Below, one piece after another: positions 26,833 to 34,171 of a stretch of 64,000 bases of DNA; the first letter of the stretch is position 1, and every line of letters begins with the position of its first letter. Source of the stretch: Amycolatopsis australiensis (GTDB taxonomy: Bacteria; Actinomycetota; Actinomycetes; Mycobacteriales; Pseudonocardiaceae). The position numbers were made by a program, and so were the translations under genes. The notes beneath the pieces were generated by a model. That model ran no database searches, was not told the DNA's origin, and was given only the letters and a program-made list of their open reading frames with translations. The DNA lies in NCBI RefSeq assembly GCF_900119165.1, contig NZ_FPJG01000006.1, positions 806,001 through 870,000 on the forward strand, written 5' to 3'.

Positions 26833-27737
26833 GCCAGGTCCCCCTTGCGGACCGCGTCGGCCCACACCGCGGCGTCGACGAAGTCGTCGTTGCCGAAGCC
26901 GGGCTCGATCGTGGTACGCGTCCCATCGGCGCGCGGGTGCGAGCCGAGGAACCGGAGGTTGCGGCACTGCCGGCGCAACGCCGTCAGCGCGTCGAGGATC
27001 CGCGGCTCGGCCACGTGCCCCTCGAAGTCGATGAAGAAGCGGTACTCGCCGAAGTTGTTCCGCGTCGGCCGCGCGTCGAGCCGGGTCAGGTTGATGCCGC
27101 GGGTCGCCAGCTCGGTGAGCAGCTCGGCGAGCGTGCCGGTGCGGTTCGCGGCCGCGGCCACGACCGACGTCCGGTCCGCGCCCGTCGGCTCCGGCAGCTC
27201 CCCCGGCGCGCGGACCAGCAGGAACCGCGTCGCCGCGTCGGTGACGTCGGCGACGTCGGTGGCCAGCACCTCGAGGTCGTAGTGCTCGACGGCGACCGGC
27301 GCGCAGACCGCGGCGTCGAACTGGCCCTCCAGCACGCCGACCGCGGCCGCCGAGGTCGAGGAAGACGCCACCGGGTGCGCGTCCGGCAGGTTCGCCTCCA
27401 GCCATTCGCGGACCTGGGCGAGCGCGTGCGGGTGGCTGGCGACGGTCTTGACGTCCCCGCTGCCGCGCCGGGTCAGCACGCTGAAGCGGATCGGCAGGAT
27501 GGCCTCGGCGACGGCCACCAGCGGCGTCGACTCGCTCAGCGCGTCGAGCGTGGCAGGCACCACCCCTTCGACCGAGTTCTCGATGGGGACGCACGCGGCG
27601 TCCGCCTCGCCCGTGCGGACGGCCGTCATCGCCAGCCGCACGGTCTCGACCGGAAACAGTTCTTCGCCGCCGGCGAGGACCCGCGCGGCTTGTTCGGTGA
27701 AGGTCCCTTGGGGGCCGAAGTATGCGATCCGTGACAC
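26829..27737 (-). CDS. pheA: Prephenate dehydratase
   Basis: 302 residues; converts prephenate to phenylpyruvate in phenylalanine synthesis. It opens SRIAYFGPQGTFTEQAARVL. CVPIENSVEGVV and the catalytic-region DVTDAATRFLLV (TRF motif) are present. The C-terminal ACT regulatory domain contains RTGTLAELLTELATRGINLTRLDARPTRNNFGEYRFFIDFEGH, including the ESRP-like phenylalanine-sensing region here read as DARPTRN. GTG start with a TAGCCT -10 six nt upstream (27744-27749), suggesting a leaderless mRNA. No chorismate mutase domain is fused. Confidence 0.95.
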   Translation of the reverse strand: MSRIAYFGPQGTFTEQAARVLAGGEELFPVETVRLAMTAVRTGEADAACVPIENSVEGVVPATLDALSESTPLVAVAEAILPIRFSVLTRRGSGDVKTVASHPHALAQVREWLEANLPDAHPVASSSTSAAAVGVLEGQFDAAVCAPVAVEHYDLEVLATDVADVTDAATRFLLVRAPGELPEPTGADRTSVVAAAANRTGTLAELLTELATRGINLTRLDARPTRNNFGEYRFFIDFEGHVAEPRILDALTALRRQCRNLRFLGSHPRADGTRTTIEPGFGNDDFVDAAVWADAVRKGDLA

Positions 27738-27743
27738 AACCCC

Positions 27744-27749
27744 AGGCTA
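27744..27749 (-). promoter_or_regulatory. pheA: -10 box TAGCCT for pheA
   Basis: Minus-strand TAGCCT lies 6 nt before the GTG at 27737, with no Shine-Dalgarno sequence between; leaderless start expected. Confidence 0.55.
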
Positions 27750-27834
27750 CGGGGCCTCGCCGTGGCGACTTTCACTCGGACAGCCGGTACTCGAACCGGT
27801 TACGCCGGGTGGCATTTTTTGCGATGCTAGGGAC

Positions 27835-28512
27835 GTGACCGCCGACTCGGGCACGCACACCGGCCGTGAGGGTACGAACCCGCCGGTCTCCCCTCGCACA
27901 CCGGAGCTGGTGCTGTGCGCCGTCGATGAACCACTCGCCACCGCCTGGACCACCGTCGCCGAGAAGCTGTGTTCAACCGGGGCTCCGCCCCGGGCCGGGG
28001 GCTCCGCCACCCGGACCCCCGAAGGCGTTCCAACGGGCCGGGTCCGGGTGCACCGCGGGTCGGTCCTCGACGTCGTCGCCCAGGCCGTGGTCAGCCCGGC
28101 CAACTCCTACGGCTGGATGCGCGGCGGCATCGACGCCGTCTACGCGCGGGCGTTCCCCGGCGTGGAGCAAAGCGTCCGCAGCGCCGTCCTGGCCTTTCAC
28201 GGCGGTGAGCTACCCATCGGCGAGGCCGTGGTCGTGCCGACCGGCGAAGCCGAGCCGGCCTGGCTGATCAGCGCGCCGACCATGCGCGAGCCCGGCGAGC
28301 TGCTGCCCGCCGACACCGTGCACCCCTACCTCGCGGCTCGCGCCGTGTTCCTGCTGTGGCGCGACGGCAAGCTCGACCAGGGACCGGTACGCGAAGCCGT
28401 CGACACGATCGCGATGCCGGGCCTGGGCACCGGCGTCGGCGGCGTCGACCCCGCGACGTGCGCGCGGCAGGTCGCGGCGGCCTGGGACGAGGTTTTTCGT
28501 CACGCGCGGTGA
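27835..28512 (+). CDS. Macro domain protein with an in-frame palindromic-element insert
   Basis: 225 residues. The macro domain (ADP-ribose or O-acetyl-ADP-ribose binding) is seen in RVRVHRGSVLDVVAQAVVSPANSYGWMRGGIDAVYARAFPG and the C-terminal IAMPGLGTGVGGVDPATCARQ. Between the first beta strand/helix (ELVLCAVDEPLATAWTTVAEKL) and RVRVHRGS lies an odd stretch, TGAPPRAGGSATRTPEGVPTG. It is encoded by a 50-bp palindromic repeat found three more times within 4 kb. It would form a surface loop. GTG start; GATGCT lies 6 nt upstream. Whether it binds or removes ADP-ribose cannot be told. Confidence 0.83.
   Translation: MTADSGTHTGREGTNPPVSPRTPELVLCAVDEPLATAWTTVAEKLCSTGAPPRAGGSATRTPEGVPTGRVRVHRGSVLDVVAQAVVSPANSYGWMRGGIDAVYARAFPGVEQSVRSAVLAFHGGELPIGEAVVVPTGEAEPAWLISAPTMREPGELLPADTVHPYLAARAVFLLWRDGKLDQGPVREAVDTIAMPGLGTGVGGVDPATCARQVAAAWDEVFRHAR
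27970..28025 (+). repeat. Palindromic element copy A (inside the macro-domain gene)
   Basis: Core is GGGGCTCCGCCCC (hairpin) followed by CCGGG...CCCGG (second hairpin) and ACCCCCGAA. It encodes GAPPRAGGSATRTP in the host frame. Compared with copy D on the opposite strand, about 45 bp are nearly identical. Confidence 0.75.
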
Positions 28513-28626
28513 TTCCTCGTAAAGGCGAGGTGGACTACATCACAGCGCGTTCACCCGCGGTAAGCCCTACCGTTAATCACGCAGGTGAACGTCCGCCAGT
28601 GCAGGCGACGGCCGGAGGAGTGTGCG

Positions 28627-29559
28627 ATGACCCGGGTCCGCGAACTCAGCCCGTATGTCGAGCTGCACCGGGAGCAATGGAAGGAACTGCGCAGTTCCAC
28701 GCCGTTGCCGCTGACGGCGGCCGAGCTGCTGCGGCTGCGCGGTCTGGGCGAACAGGTCGATCTGGCCGAGGTCGCCGACGTGTACCTGCCGCTGTCCCGC
28801 CTGATCAACCTGCAGGTCGCCGCGCGCCAACGGCTCTACGAAGCGACCACGACGTTCCTCGGTGACGACTCCCGCGGCACGAAGGTGCCGTTCGTGATCG
28901 GCATCGCCGGGAGCGTGGCGGTCGGCAAGTCGACCACCGCGCGCATCCTGCGCACGCTGCTCGCCCGCTGGCCCGACCACCCCCGCGTCGACCTGGTCAC
29001 CACCGACGGCTTCCTGTACCCGCGCGCCGAGCTGATGCGGCGCGGGATCATGCACCGCAAGGGCTTCCCCGAGAGTTACGACCGGCGGGCGCTGCTGAGG
29101 TTCGTCACCGAGGTCAAGTCGGGTGCCGAGCGGGTCACCGCGCCGGTGTACTCGCACCTGGCCTACGACATCCTGCCCGGCCAGGAGCAGGTGGTGCAGC
29201 AGCCGGACATCCTCATCCTCGAGGGCCTGAACGTGCTGCAGCCGGGGCCGCGGCTGATGGTGTCCGACCTCTTCGACTTCTCGATCTACGTCGACGCGCA
29301 CACCGACGACATCCAGCGCTGGTACATCGAGCGGTTCCTGGAGCTGCGGCACACGGCGTTCGCGGACCCGGCGTCGCACTTCCACCACTTCGCCGGCCTG
29401 CCCGACGACGAGGCCCGCGCCGAGGCGCGGCACCTGTGGCGCTCGATCAACGAGCCCAACCTGATGGAGAACATCAAGCCGACCCGGCCCCGCGCGACGC
29501 TCGTGCTGCGCAAGGACGCCGACCACACGATCAACCGGGTCCGGCTGCGCAAGCTCTGA
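28627..29559 (+). CDS. coaA: Pantothenate kinase, type I
   Basis: 310 residues; phosphorylates pantothenate in the first step of CoA synthesis. Walker A is [15 protein letters not shown] near residues 91-105. [28 protein letters not shown] carries the pantothenate-binding and catalytic Asp region; [16 protein letters not shown] and [21 protein letters not shown] complete the type I signature. The ATG has GGAGGAG at about 6 nt. Type I enzymes are usually inhibited by CoA. 220 bp separate it from the next gene. Confidence 0.95.
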
Positions 29560-29779
29560 CGTCGTCACGCACCACGTCACCCACATGCCCGCGATTCGCA
29601 CGCTGAGCGAAGGCGCGGACACGGTTCGTCAGGGCTTTGCGACTCTCCGCGCCGGAACCCCGGCCGATCGGCCGAGGCGGGCCGTTCAGCCGTAACCGGT
29701 TGGCCGATACCCCCGGCCGCCGGTGAAAGCGACCCTGAAGGAGTCAGGAAAACGGCTCTGAGCTGGGAGGAGGCCCACG
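29560..29779. other. Intergenic region after coaA, no recognised element
   Basis: 220 bp between coaA and the small membrane gene. It holds the short palindrome GGCCGATCGGCC and a Shine-Dalgarno GGGAGGAGG just before 29780. I looked for c-di-AMP, cobalamin and SAM riboswitch cores and saw none. Presumably the promoter of the following gene. Confidence 0.5.
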
Positions 29780-29986
29780 ATGTTCTCGATGATCCTCACG
29801 TGGGTCGGCGCGGTTCTCGGGCTGGCCTTGCTGATCGCGATGGCCGCCGGAACGTTCGTCGTGGACTTCGACGACCGGTTGCAGGAGCGCCGCCGCAAGG
29901 CTGTGCCAACCGGGGCCGGGGGCTTCGCCACCCGGAACCCCCGAAACCTCGCGAAGCCCGCCGAACCGGCAGGCCCCCTCCCCTAG
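29780..29986 (+). CDS. Small single-pass membrane protein with repeat-derived C-terminus
   Basis: 68 residues. One transmembrane helix (MILTWVGAVLGLALLIAMAAGTFVV) is followed by a charged stretch (DFDDRLQERRRKAV), then PTGAGGFATRNPRNLAKP. The last part is encoded by copy B of the palindromic element and resembles the peptide the element makes in two other proteins. The ATG is preceded by GGGAGGAGG. The native C-terminus has probably been replaced or extended. Function unknown. Confidence 0.6.
   Translation: MFSMILTWVGAVLGLALLIAMAAGTFVVDFDDRLQERRRKAVPTGAGGFATRNPRNLAKPAEPAGPLP
29903..29958 (+). repeat. Palindromic element copy B (3' end of small membrane gene)
   Basis: Shortened copy: the first hairpin (GGGGCTCCGCCCC) is missing but CCGGGGGCTTCGCCACCCGG and the following CCCCCGAA remain. 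Read in the same frame as copies A and D (GAGGFATRNP). Confidence 0.65.
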
Positions 29987-29989
29987 GCG

Positions 29990-31498
29990 TCAGAGTCCGG
30001 CCAGCGCCGCCACGTAGGCGTCGGCGTCGTATTCGAGCGTTTCCACGTCCACCAGGCTGTTCTCCAGCGCGTCGATCAGCTGCTCGAAGATCTCGTCGCG
30101 GTCGAGCTCGCCCTCCTGCAGGCGTTGCGCGGCCTGCCAGGCTTCGGCGGGCTCGTCGTCCCAGAGCTGGTCGACGACGGTCGCGCGCAGGATCAGCCGC
30201 TGCTCGTCCTCGTCTTCGTCGGCTTCGGCGATGACGAGCGCCCGGCGCTGCTCCGGGTCGGTCGGGTCGAGGTCGACTTCCTCGTCCTCGATCTCCGTGG
30301 TCAGCGACGGCACGGCGAACATCCGGCGTTCCAGCGCGTCCGCCAGCTCGGTCGGCGACAGGTCGCCGACGTCGCCGAAGTAGCGCTCCAGCGGCGAGTC
30401 GTCTTCGTCGGCGTACTCGCTCAGGTAGTCGGCGACGGCTTCGTCGAGCGCGGCGATCGCCGTCTCGGTCAGCCCGGCCCGCTCGGCCGTCCACTGCACC
30501 CAGGCGAGGACGACCGGCTCGACGGCGTCCTCGTGGTCGGCGTCCAGCTCGTACTCCTCGCCGAGCACGCCTTCGAGGAACCGCGCGATCTTCTCGGGCC
30601 CGACGCGCAGCGGGTTCGCCGGGTCGGTGCGCAGGCCGTGCTCCAGCAGGAGCGTCCCGATCGCGCGAGCGGCGTCGGCGTCTTCGCCGCTCGCCGCGAC
30701 GAACTGCTCGACGACGGCGGCCCGTTCGTCGTCGGACCACGCGGCGACCTCGGGGACGAGCGCGGGTTCGGGCAGCTCGCGCGACCACGTCAGCGCGATG
30801 GCGTGGAAGCGCCCGTAGTCCTCGCTGACGTCGGCGTCCTCGAGGTGGTCGGTCGCGGCGAGGCCGTCGGAGAGCAGGCGGTGCGCCTCGGCGGGGTCGA
30901 CCGCCTCGAACACGACCAGCTCGGGATCTGCTTCGGCCTGTTCGCGCATCTCGGCGAGGACGTCCGCGGGCTGCTCGATCACGACGAGGTCCCGCACCCG
31001 GCCGCCTTCGGTGAAGTCGAGCAGCGCAAGCAGGCCGTACGCCGTGTCGCCGTGGGAGAAGACGCAGAGCAGGGACGATTCGTCGCCGTAGACGTCACCG
31101 GTCCGCCAGCACTCGCCGGCGGTGACGCGGCCGAGGTCCGCGGCCCAGGCGGGCTCGGGAATGCCGCGACCGAGGACGACCTGCAGCCCGGCCTCGGCGG
31201 CCTTGCGCTCGACGTCGGTCTCCGCGACGACCTTCAGCGCGGCCAGCAGCGCCGCGGCGCCGGGCGTGATCTTGCGCTGCGCGAAACCGATCAGCTCCAG
31301 GCCCAGCGGCTCGTCGCCGTCTTCGAGCGGCACGTCGCGGAACTGGCCGAGGACTTCGGAGGCGAGCAGCTCGACGTCGACCGGCGCGGGGTCGGCGCCC
31401 AGCGCCGAGAAGTCGTTCAGGATTTCCTTGAACAGGCCGGTCACGCTGTGGGTGACGGGCTGCGGGGCCTTCTTGCGGGCGCGACTCACCGGGCTCAT
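29990..31498 (-). CDS. Conserved actinobacterial hypothetical protein, 502 aa
   Basis: A soluble, acidic protein. The N-terminus MSPVSRARKKAPQPVTHSVTGLFKEIL is basic, the rest strongly acidic (e.g. TEIEDEEVDLDPTDPEQRRALVIAEADEDEDEQRL). No signal peptide, membrane helix or catalytic motif is visible. Segment GLLALLDFTEGGRVRDLVVIEQPADVL looks like a folded alpha/beta core. I know this type only as an uncharacterised actinobacterial family. It starts 254 bp before the TPR-like gene ending at 31753, with an unusual hairpin in between. Confidence 0.7.
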   Translation of the reverse strand: MSPVSRARKKAPQPVTHSVTGLFKEILNDFSALGADPAPVDVELLASEVLGQFRDVPLEDGDEPLGLELIGFAQRKITPGAAALLAALKVVAETDVERKAAEAGLQVVLGRGIPEPAWAADLGRVTAGECWRTGDVYGDESSLLCVFSHGDTAYGLLALLDFTEGGRVRDLVVIEQPADVLAEMREQAEADPELVVFEAVDPAEAHRLLSDGLAATDHLEDADVSEDYGRFHAIALTWSRELPEPALVPEVAAWSDDERAAVVEQFVAASGEDADAARAIGTLLLEHGLRTDPANPLRVGPEKIARFLEGVLGEEYELDADHEDAVEPVVLAWVQWTAERAGLTETAIAALDEAVADYLSEYADEDDSPLERYFGDVGDLSPTELADALERRMFAVPSLTTEIEDEEVDLDPTDPEQRRALVIAEADEDEDEQRLILRATVVDQLWDDEPAEAWQAAQRLQEGELDRDEIFEQLIDALENSLVDVETLEYDADAYVAALAGL

Positions 31499-31529
31499 GG
31501 CTTCATGTTTTCACCTGCGCGACTTCATG

Positions 31530-31562
31530 CGGGGGCCCGGGTGGCGAAGCCCCGCATGTCAC
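31530..31562 (-). repeat. Palindromic element copy C (intergenic, partial)
   Basis: Minus strand reads GGGGCTTCGCCACCCGGG, the core of copies A, B and D. Here it is enclosed by CATGCGGGG/CCCCGCATG arms, making its own hairpin just upstream of the gene starting at 31498. Confidence 0.55.
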
Positions 31563-31571
31563 AGCTCAGCG

Positions 31572-31653
31572 GTCGCGGTGGCCCTGGCGCGGGTCCCGCC
31601 GGGTGCTCGACGGGGAGGCGCCGAGCCGGACGGCGGGACAGGGCCACCGCGAC
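31572..31653. repeat. 82-nt long hairpin element
   Basis: Outer arms GTCGCGGTGGCCCT (31572-31585) and AGGGCCACCGCGAC (31640-31653) pair perfectly. GTCCCGCCG (31593-31601) pairs with CGGCGGGAC (31631-31639) after a 7-nt bulge, and GCTCG/CGAGC pair inside. A roughly 23-bp stem in total, with no ORF. Could be a terminator, a structured RNA or a non-autonomous insertion. Confidence 0.6.
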
Positions 31654-31752
31654 GTCGCTGGCCAGAGCGGCGTCATCGCCTTGGCGCGCTAGCGGTGTCC
31701 CGGTGCACGTGCACACCGGTTCACCGGGGTCAACGAGAGGCGTGGGGCGAGG

Positions 31753-31820
31753 TTACGAGGCTTTTCGGGGGGTCCGGGTGGCGGCGCCCCCGGCCCGGGG
31801 CGGAGTCCCGGCTGTCACGG
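31753..31820 (-). repeat. Palindromic element copy D (3' end of TPR-like gene)
   Basis: On the minus strand it matches copy A over about 45 bp: ACTCCGCCCCGGGCCGGGGG then CGCCACCCGGACCCCC. It supplies the last codons and the stop of the host gene (AGTPPRAGGAATRTP). Confidence 0.75.
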
Positions 31821-33138
31821 CTTTGGGCAACGCGATTCGCGCGGCGCGGATTTCCGTGATCAGCCGGGTTTTCCGGCGGTGGGTTTCCACCAGCGCGGCG
31901 AGGTAGGCGGTGAACTCGTCCGCGGTCTCGGCGCGTTTGTGCAAGGTGCGCAACAGCTTCAGCCGGCGCGCGGCCTCGCGGTAGGCGTGCGGGTCCTTGC
32001 GCTCGATCAGCTCCTCGACGTGCTCGCGGAACACCGGGATCGTCTCGGCCGGGTGCTCGGCGGCCCGCTGTTCGGCCAGTTCGAGCTTGAGCTGCGGTGA
32101 CGCCCCGAACCGGACGCAGGCGCGCCAGGCTTCGTCGGGACGGCCGTCCTCGAGCAGCACGCGGGCCAGCTCGTCGGCCTGCTCGACGCCTTCGGCGGCC
32201 AGCTCGCGCAGCCGGGCGAGCGCGGCCCGGCGTTGCGCCGTCCACTTCCCCTCGGCCTGCGCGGCTTCACGCAGCGCAAAGTACGTCTCGCGGCTTGGCC
32301 GGTCGTCGAACTCCCTGCGCCGCCGGGTCGTTTCGCTGTCGCTGTCGCTGTCACGGCTCGCGGGCTCCGGCGGGTGCTTGTCGTGCGTGAGGGCGCGGGC
32401 GGCGTGGGCGATGGCCTCGCTGTGCCGTCCGGCGGCCCGCAGCACCCGGACGATCTTGAGGCTGACGTCGACGCGCGGCGGCTTGGCCGAGAGGATCGCG
32501 ACCAGCTCGTCGACGTCGCCGCGCACTTCCGCCAGCTGCTCCCGCAGCCGTTCGGCCACGTCGCGGCGGTGCCCGGACACGCCCGTGGCGAGCACGTCGT
32601 CCACAGTGGACTTGATGCGCGCGAGCCCGCGCTCGCCCAGCGCCGTCGCGAACTCGGCGAGTTCGAGCACCGGCCAGCCGGGACCGTCGAACTCGACTTC
32701 GAGGATCCAGTCCGCCAGCTTCTCCGGGTCCGGCGGCCGGGCGGCGCACGCGCGGGCGTACAGCTCGACGGCGCGTTCCAGCCGGTCACCGAGGTCGCCG
32801 GCGTGGTCGCCGGACTGCTCGAGGACCTCGCTGATGTCGTCGACCGTCCGGCGGGCGAGCGGGGCCAGGTCGGCGCGGCTGCCGGCGTCGAGCATGCGCT
32901 GCAGCGTGTCGAGGACCGCGCCGATCTTCGCGGTGTACTCGACGTTCCCGTCGGTCACCGCGGTGTCCAGCAGCCGGTGCGCCTCACTGACGTCACCGGA
33001 TTGGGTGGCGGCGCGCAGTTCGAGCGAATGCCGTAGCTCAGGGTCACGCTCGGCTTGGGCGTGCAGCAGGTCCGCCAGCGTCTCCGCGTCCAAAGTGCGC
33101 AGGTAGGGGCGAAGATCCGAGTGGGGACTCACGCGCAC
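31753..33138 (-). CDS. Helical TPR-like hypothetical protein with repeat-derived C-terminus
   Basis: 461 residues, almost entirely helical and rich in Ala/Leu/Arg/Glu, with TPR-like periodicity (e.g. RALTHDKHPPEPASRDSDSD after AAGRHSEAIAHAA, and EADELARVLLEDGRPDEAWRACVRFG). It opens MRVSPHSDLRPYLRTLDAETLADLLHAQAERDP. No catalytic motif. The last 20 residues (TAGTPPRAGGAATRTPRKAS) come from copy D of the palindromic element and probably replace the original end. One GTCCANNNTGGAC motif lies at 32599-32611. A start 6 nt downstream (33132) is also possible. Unknown role, perhaps a scaffold. Confidence 0.68.
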   Translation of the reverse strand: MRVSPHSDLRPYLRTLDAETLADLLHAQAERDPELRHSLELRAATQSGDVSEAHRLLDTAVTDGNVEYTAKIGAVLDTLQRMLDAGSRADLAPLARRTVDDISEVLEQSGDHAGDLGDRLERAVELYARACAARPPDPEKLADWILEVEFDGPGWPVLELAEFATALGERGLARIKSTVDDVLATGVSGHRRDVAERLREQLAEVRGDVDELVAILSAKPPRVDVSLKIVRVLRAAGRHSEAIAHAARALTHDKHPPEPASRDSDSDSETTRRRREFDDRPSRETYFALREAAQAEGKWTAQRRAALARLRELAAEGVEQADELARVLLEDGRPDEAWRACVRFGASPQLKLELAEQRAAEHPAETIPVFREHVEELIERKDPHAYREAARRLKLLRTLHKRAETADEFTAYLAALVETHRRKTRLITEIRAARIALPKAVTAGTPPRAGGAATRTPRKAS

Positions 33139-33220
33139 CAGTCTGCCCGACCACGTCGGCTCGGCGTGTGGGCCAACCGCGTGCTCTTTTCGGCGTAACC
33201 GGTGACGGCGGGTGACGTGC

Positions 33221-34171
33221 TCATCGACGGCGCAAGTCGTCGAGCACGGCTTTCATCGGCCAGGGTTCGGGTGCGCGCGGCCGTCGTGACGCTGCGTGCC
33301 GGGGTCGCGGGATCGCCGCCCGCATCGTCGGCACCATGATCGGCACGACCGGCACCGGCACGCGCGCGACCAGCCGCCGCACGACGACGAGCAGCAGCGC
33401 GGCCCCCAGCAGCAGCGCCGCACTCGCGGCGAGCGCGCCGGTCAGCGTCCGGCGGCCTTCGTCGAGGGTGAGCTGCACGGCGTACTGGTTCTGCTGCGTG
33501 TACAGGAAGCCGAGTTGCTGCGACACGGTGTACGCGGCGCTGCGCCAGGTGGACTCGGGGACGGGCAGCGGCCGGCCGGCGGCCAGGGCGTCTTCGGCAG
33601 CGGTCAGCGTGGTCCAGTCGGCGCTGCGGGTGAGCGACTCGTATGCCGTCCGGCCACTGTCGGTGAGCTGCGGCGCGATCCGGGCCAGCCCGGTCCGGTA
33701 GCCGGCGACGGCCTCGGCGAACGACGGCCGCGTGACGTCGTCGAGCCCGGCCAGCGCGAGGGAATCGGAGCGGTACATGCCTTCGGCGGCGGAAAGCAGC
33801 TCGACCGCGGTCATCTGCTGGTAGGCCGATTCCGCGTCCGGCGCGTGACGGGCGTAGTCGCGCAGGCCGTCGATGGCGGTGTCGATCCGCCGGGTGAAAT
33901 TCGCGTACGCGGCGGAACGCCGGCCAGGCACGGACATCGCTTCACTGCGCTGGGTCCGGAGCGCGACCACGGCGCGGGCGGTCCGGTCGGCGGCGTTGGC
34001 CGTCTCCACCCCGGCGTCGCGGGTGCGATCGGCTTGCTGCACCAGGAAGAACGCGATCACGAGGGCCACGAGGACGAGCGCGCCGCCGGGGACGAACGCG
34101 ATGCACAACATGCGGCCGCGGACGGATCGCAGGTACTTCAAGACGTTCCTTTCCCGGTCTTGGGCCCGCAC
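33221..34171 (-). CDS. NIT (nitrate/nitrite-sensing)-like membrane sensor lacking a kinase
   Basis: 316 residues. Two transmembrane helices (MLCIAFVPGGALVLVALVIAFFLV and ALAASAALLLGAALLLVVV) flank an all-helical outer domain of about 190 residues (ANAADRTARAVVALRTQRSEAMS, then YQQMTAVELLSAAEGMYRSD) as in NIT-domain sensor kinases. After TM2 there are only about 60 basic/Pro-rich residues: no HAMP, HisKA or ATPase. The start may instead be the TTG at 34141, which has AAAGGA 5 nt upstream. Either a truncated kinase or a stand-alone sensor. Confidence 0.65.
   Translation of the reverse strand: MRAQDRERNVLKYLRSVRGRMLCIAFVPGGALVLVALVIAFFLVQQADRTRDAGVETANAADRTARAVVALRTQRSEAMSVPGRRSAAYANFTRRIDTAIDGLRDYARHAPDAESAYQQMTAVELLSAAEGMYRSDSLALAGLDDVTRPSFAEAVAGYRTGLARIAPQLTDSGRTAYESLTRSADWTTLTAAEDALAAGRPLPVPESTWRSAAYTVSQQLGFLYTQQNQYAVQLTLDEGRRTLTGALAASAALLLGAALLLVVVRRLVARVPVPVVPIMVPTMRAAIPRPRHAASRRPRAPEPWPMKAVLDDLRRR

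Follow-up and report, generated by a model that had tools for sequence, protein, structure and literature searches.

The locus and its four copies

The DNA considered here, referred to as the window, is a stretch of 64,000 nucleotides (71.6% GC) from Amycolatopsis australiensis (GCF_900119165.1, NZ_FPJG01000006.1, positions 806,001-870,000, forward strand), and coordinates are those of the window. Within 4 kb it contains four copies, A to D, of a short palindromic element, as had been claimed in an earlier note on this sequence. Three of them lie in reading frames and one is intergenic. The genome from which the window is derived (9.3 Mb) is called G000.

Copy A, 27970..28032, plus strand: full element with two hairpins and a variant GTGTTCAACC 5' end, in frame in the macro-domain gene
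Host of A, 27835..28512, plus strand: macro-domain protein of 225 amino acids including the insert, Pfam Macro at 86-212
Copy B, 29903..29953, plus strand: shortened copy, hairpin 1 lost, in frame in the 68-amino-acid membrane protein
Host of B, 29780..29986, plus strand: small membrane protein, 68 amino acids here and 51 in the common form, with the conserved end AEPAGPLP
Copy C, 31520..31562, minus strand: shortened intergenic copy, hairpin 2 and the GTGACA end, end coordinates approximate
Copy D, 31757..31818, minus strand: full element of 62 bp, 5' of GTAAC near the end of the DUF6880/TPR-like gene
Host of D, 31753..33138, minus strand: DUF6880 (TPR-like) protein of 461 amino acids

The double hairpin, attributed in the earlier note to all four copies, is found in A and D; B and C have lost hairpin 1. 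A and D match on opposite strands over 47 nt (94% complementary; about 45 bp had been stated), and the hosts of A, B and D indeed read the element on the same strand and in one shared frame. Copy A is a net addition of 63 bp, which introduces 21 residues (CSTGAPPRAGGSATRTPEGVP) as residues 46-66 of its host. Copy B accounts for 17 extra residues (51 bp) compared with the common form of the membrane protein. As these residues precede the conserved end, only one of the two new C-termini that had been proposed holds, namely that of D, where the end of the DUF6880 protein (VTSPRTPR or similar in relatives) is replaced by VTAGTPPRAGGAATRTPRKAS in the window.

The macro-domain protein was modelled with AlphaFold from 37 sequences (mean pLDDT 71.9), with values below 50 at residues 1-19, 49-67 and 89-99. 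The insert falls between a helix (32-47) and a strand (70-74), and Foldseek returned macro-domain structures, the best being the yeast ADP-ribose-1''-monophosphatase 1njr (E 2e-9, 219 alignment columns). In agreement with the loop suggested earlier, the insert coincides with a low-pLDDT segment and, judged from the model, most likely forms a floppy loop that precedes the main sheet.

A 15-nt perfect inverted repeat (GTCGCGGTGGCCCTG at 31572-31586 and CAGGGCCACCGCGAC at 31639-31653) is located beside copy C, immediately downstream of the DUF6880 gene. Its first arm is kept in relatives, and the repeat could be the terminator of the DUF6880 gene.

Empty sites, anatomy and distribution

Orthologous sites were compared in a genus sample of 80 Amycolatopsis genomes. 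The PanK gene is present in 80/80 of them, and syntenic 7-kb regions around it were obtained from 60 of 79 congeners; the 27 closest relatives are the syntenic loci L033-L059. Site A is empty in all 59 congeners with both flanks aligned. At the protein level the residues are absent in 36/36 relatives aligned from named records (36 of 80 loci, themselves the best 80 of 167 relatives). In the closest relatives, site D is empty in 27/27. The earlier note had named shared residues in all macro-domain and TPR-like orthologues of distant relatives as speaking against its view; the relatives compared here lack them. At site B, one of the 27 relatives (L044) has a full 63-bp copy and another (L040) a 15-bp remnant, both in frame, and 25 are without the element, one of them with a single extra codon. 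The intergenic site C is occupied in 9/27 and empty in 18/27. These empty orthologous sites, which the earlier note had asked to be sought, show that the element was inserted into pre-existing sites. A and D look recent because they are private to G000.

The pairs of filled and empty sites place the insertions 5' of GTGAAG, GTAACC, GTGCAGG or similar sequences; at site D, the junction in the empty relatives reads AAAGCC/GTAACC. Insertion just 5' of a GTGA/GTAA/GTGC-like sequence is thus frequent, as a tendency. Since the target at D is GTAAC and the left end of the copy is GTGAC, the left end is part of the element and does not represent a target duplication. The empty sites have at most a short GT(GA)-like overlap with the element. 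A test for duplications between flank and tail, made on 54 single copies with a recognised start, gave a weak excess in one interval (z ~2; 10/500 shuffles as high).

In aligned copies the unit is about 63 bp long and consists of GTGACA(A/T)CC, hairpin 1, GCC, hairpin 2 and a variable tail of about 12 nt with a GAAAAGC-like start. Hairpin 1 is CCGGGGCTTCGCCCCGG with a 7-bp stem (CCGGGGC TTC GCCCCGG), and hairpin 2 comprises CGGGGG, a bulged C, TCCG, the loop CCACC, CGGA, N and CCCCCG. The two ends are unlike each other, and no terminal inverted repeats were found in the aligned copies. Base counts at the ends were taken from 111 distinct copies (93 array-last, 93 array-first). Neither these nor the alignments contain a GTAG tetranucleotide beside the hairpin or a CGTC at either end, the ends being GTGAC and the variable tail. 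No Rfam match was obtained in the region at the gathering threshold. The consensus lacks stop codons in five of its six frames; the remaining one, a sense frame, contains TGA. Hairpin 1 shows paired changes, with 5 double-changed cells compared to 1.4 in shuffles (0/500 as high) in an alignment of ten rows, two of them from one array. When four copies were folded as single-stranded DNA, two formed both hairpins as drawn, one formed both more weakly and one adopted a different fold.

Copies are solitary or lie in head-to-tail arrays with a period of 62-65 bp; the close arrays seen are on the same strand. In one array (G000:C6:1515465-1515683), four head-to-tail copies recur every 65 bp with nearly the same tail, which points to local tandem duplication.

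A search of the whole of G000, as had been recommended, was made with the 24-nt core and yielded 39 places at ≤3 mismatches and 0 for the reversed control, so the matches are not due to chance. A covariance model built from ten copies found 46 places at E≤0.1 and 41 at E≤1e-5, with 150 candidates scored. At ≤1 mismatch the core occurs in 34/80 genus genomes, six of which hold one copy and 28 of which hold 9-118; apart from these 28, the remaining 52/80 contain 0-1 core copies. The 27 carriers besides G000 are precisely the 27 relatives with the best PanK scores. The family is therefore concentrated in one Amycolatopsis clade.

In a family sample of 346 genomes the core was detected in 18, of which 16 are Amycolatopsis; the two genomes outside the genus have one match each, and the reversed control has 1 match. 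A class sample of 394 genomes gave the core in 10. The nine besides G000 have 1-3 places each, and six of these nine belong to one genus code (g71); some matches have a CCCCCC loop. Because these matches number 12 in total vs 0 in the reversed control, related single hairpins may occur elsewhere at very low copy. A pattern which we take to be Streptomyces-like matched 1/98 genomes, at 8 places.

The 60 syntenic PanK loci contain 18 core copies at ≤5 substitutions, compared to 0 for the reversed control. About seven distinct insertion sites lie in the 7 kb around PanK (27126-34126 of the window together with L033-L059), a density far above the mean (1035 copies of the core over 27 genomes, each of 9-11 Mb). 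The PanK region is a possible insertion hotspot, with a figure inflated by the way in which the window was chosen.

Copies inside genes

Copies inside genes were surveyed in three genomes. A total of 158 loci entered (43 from G000, 45 from G007, 70 from G028); G007 and G028 were subsampled (45 regions for 74 copies and 70 loci for 118 copies, respectively). After merging of arrays and removal of loci with a coreless centre, 144 units forming 124 orthologous groups were kept. Genes in these loci were predicted with a codon model trained in the analysis. Because the gene finder overlooked the 68-amino-acid gene at site B and placed the start of the macro-domain gene 3' of the insert, the in-gene counts are likely to be low for short genes and gene starts.

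The coding signal crosses the element in frame in 19/124 groups. The reading frames are distributed over sense VTSGAPPRAGGSATRTP (5 groups), sense CDNRGFAPGRGLRHPDPRK (4), antisense GSGWRSPRP (2), antisense GGPGGGAPGPGRSPG (4) and antisense GVRVAEPPARGEAPVV (4); the sense frame that meets TGA is used in none. All five open frames are thus in use elsewhere, and the frame that A, B and D have in common is a local feature. The fixed frame, which the earlier note had wished to see checked in other coding copies, is not maintained across the genome. In 14/144 units the stop codon of an upstream gene falls in the element's own first bases.

All 19 read-through hosts were scanned against Pfam. In six of them the insert lies within one match above the cutoff, namely DAGK_cat, Methyltransf_14, AMP-binding (twice, once with an acetyl-CoA synthetase N-terminus), MFS_1 and Glyco_hydro_53. 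In several nonribosomal peptide synthetases (NRPS) and polyketide synthases (PKS) it is located between Pfam matches.

Some further hosts are worth describing. In NRPS adenylation regions the element directly follows GD(L/V)VRW, once in G007 (L160) and in three loci of G028 (L322, L323, L324); the latter are spaced about 4.3 kb apart, as if duplicated together with their modules. In L018 (G000) and L148 (G007) it lengthens the start of the same protein (MRKT-insert-VLALAAVAGLLFATAAPA, signal-peptide-like by eye), and in L024 a shortened copy lengthens a lipoprotein-like start. RecO of G000 (L011; Pfam RecO_N, RecO_C) and its counterpart in G028 (L342) have a copy near the C-terminus, and its frame is the one used by A, B and D.

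The DAG kinase gene is present in 80/80 genus genomes. Among 43 loci read, 8 are filled (G000, G030, G050, G007, G043, G041, G051 and G065) and 35 are short. For the remaining 37 genomes, the matched span falls 54-75 bp short of the query, as would be the case if no insert were present. The insert lies between GGDGTVNEVVNGLLAD and PALGVVPGG, within one Pfam match, and it adds a net 54-63 bp, in every case a multiple of three. When the alleles at A, B and DAG kinase are pooled, 12/12 have net lengths divisible by 3 (12/13 with D). For the eight DAG-kinase alleles this is in part built in, since the search required both flanks to lie in one frame. At the intergenic site C, 2/8 distinct lengths are divisible by 3 (L048 and L052 counted once with L036). 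The core of the DAG-kinase insert has a dN/dS of 0.81, compared to 0.03 and 0.13 for the two coding flanks, and evolves nearly neutrally. Judged by eye, several of the eight alleles have similar tails, which may point to a single old insertion that was repeatedly lost with precision or exchanged. The AlphaFold model of DAG kinase was too poor (mean pLDDT 39) and was left unused.

Proposed mobility, alternatives and related systems

The data are best explained by a selfish miniature element that works like the Rickettsia palindromic elements (RPEs). We consider it quite probable that the copies are non-autonomous mobile elements of about 63 bp, forming a family concentrated in one clade and moved in trans, with the encoded peptide as a passenger. 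The RPE-like, in-frame mobile palindrome of the earlier note is supported by the empty sites, by the high copy numbers found mainly within one clade and by the in-frame copies in many conserved proteins; its fixed frame is not. An enzyme acting in trans would mobilise the unit via its hairpins and its GTGAC end. Copies inside genes would persist if the net insertion keeps the frame at a position where a loop of about 17-22 residues, probably disordered, is tolerated, or alternatively if the last codons alone are changed; the peptide would represent no selected domain. We know of no enzyme that mobilises the Rickettsia or Wolbachia palindromic elements.

Several observations weigh against this explanation. 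No transposition event was seen and no mobilising enzyme was found; the Y1 transposase (PF01797, E≤0.001) was detected in 0/80 genus genomes, G000 included, and in 5/14 control genomes. The junctions are inexact at A, B and DAG kinase, and GT beside the tail is in modest excess only (17% at position 12 after the C run, 5.7% as background). Copy D is 62 bp long and shifts the frame, although over the last codons only. The number of double-changed pairs (2, compared to 1.2 in shuffles; 178/500 as high) shows no excess, and among the four copies folded, a single one has a folding energy clearly better than its shuffles (z -3.84, compared to -1.75, -0.25 and -0.73 for the rest). Beyond A, B, D and DAG kinase, the in-gene cases are supported by coding signal and domain matches; among the 19 read-through groups, empty sites back A and DAG kinase only. 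Furthermore, genomes with the DAG-kinase insert are dispersed over the trees (a PanK+DAGK tree requires 6 changes and each of four flank trees 8), and for this reason repeated insertion, precise loss and interspecies exchange are not separated in this gene.

A more far-reaching version is tentative and in our view rather doubtful: the element would be active, or have been so recently, and would be inserted and excised precisely by an unrecognised class of enzyme, so that enzymes including NRPS and PKS would gain and lose a loop of about 20 residues in the course of species divergence.

Among the alternatives, a family of repetitive extragenic palindromic (REP) sequences or BIMEs with a REP-associated Y1 (HUH) tyrosine transposase (IS200/IS605 group, possibly lost since) as its mobiliser seems unlikely. 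Such a family would share the hairpins behind a short fixed 5' tag, the insertion beside a short sequence without clear target duplication and the head-to-tail arrays, and CGTC-type REPs likewise have no dedicated transposase (PMC3733652). However, the tag is GTGAC, neither GTAG nor CGTC, and PF01797 is missing from all 80 genomes although A and D look recent. A RAYT or IS200/IS605 transposase in G000 or the genus sample is rejected on the basis of the same search.

The copies might also have multiplied with no transposase at all, through replication slippage, template switching primed by hairpins, or recombination; this is judged equally improbable. Local duplication does occur, as is evident from tandem arrays whose tails are identical and from copies that recur at one position in several NRPS modules of a single genome, and the failure to find an enzyme fits as well. 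However, these processes do not readily account for solitary copies that are scattered over unrelated loci and have a constant 5' end.

Selected transcription terminators or RNA-level regulatory hairpins that are occasionally taken into reading frames are disfavoured and very improbable. The hairpins have some paired changes, and the majority of units (101/144) lie between two predicted genes. However, the gene orientations around intergenic units resemble those of random positions (convergent 0.14 vs 0.19, divergent 0.23 vs 0.21), site C is polymorphic among close species, 19 groups are read through within genes and Rfam has no match in the region. Only 28% of the units are in predicted genes, compared to 86% of random positions in the same loci. 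This depletion together with the random-like orientations is as predicted for selfish insertions filtered by selection and not for a terminator. Equally remote is an encoded peptide selected as a useful linker or localisation module: DAG kinase has retained it in 8 species, and one genome has it at three adenylation-domain sites, but the DAG-kinase insert is near-neutral (0.81 vs 0.03 and 0.13), the five frames yield five different peptides and the hosts are unrelated.

The selfish, RPE-like element preferred here can be compared with several known systems by description, not by sequence; it may work like an RPE without being one. RPEs are described as small palindromic repeats found in frame inside conserved proteins as well as in intergenic regions (PMC2229807, PMC3733652). 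In-frame insertion into unrelated conserved genes is shared with RPEs and the Wolbachia palindromic elements, and empty orthologous sites are found here. In contrast to the 105-146 bp of RPEs, the Amycolatopsis unit has about 63 bp (array period 62-65; net 62-63 at D and A) and two unlike hairpins, its GTGAC end differs from the CGTC end reported for RPE-4/6, and its host is a high-GC actinobacterium.

GTAG- and CGTC-REPs resemble it in being high-copy hairpins with a short tag at one end and in being located partly inside genes. Intragenic REPs in various bacteria encode 20-30 residues, and CGTC-REPs are listed without a dedicated transposase (PMC3733652). The GTAG-REP/RAYT system differs by its tag and by its Y1 transposase, for which the 80-genome genus sample was negative. 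The arrays observed in Amycolatopsis run head to tail, whereas among REPs the HH dimers are described as predominant (PMC3733652). ERIC/RU and Correia/NEMIS are likewise small non-autonomous repeats for which in-frame fusion is possible (PMC2229807). There they are given terminal inverted repeats, TA ends and target duplication; the ends here are unlike each other, and target duplication is not established. A search of the open-licence literature returned no report of such an element in Actinobacteria or Amycolatopsis, consistent with the earlier statement that no named family is known in this group.

The literature consulted reports in-frame palindromic insertions from Rickettsia, Wolbachia and some genomes rich in REPs. 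In large, free-living producers of antibiotics, a family as compact and well bounded as this one would offer many natural pairs of filled and empty sites in species close enough to be compared. It would also provide five different peptides and host enzymes amenable to assay. Experiments could then address how well a protein accommodates a foreign loop of about 20 residues, and by what means short hairpin DNA moves in genomes in which no Y1 transposase is found. Annotation and engineering of NRPS and PKS may also be affected, as such loops could pass for functional linkers.

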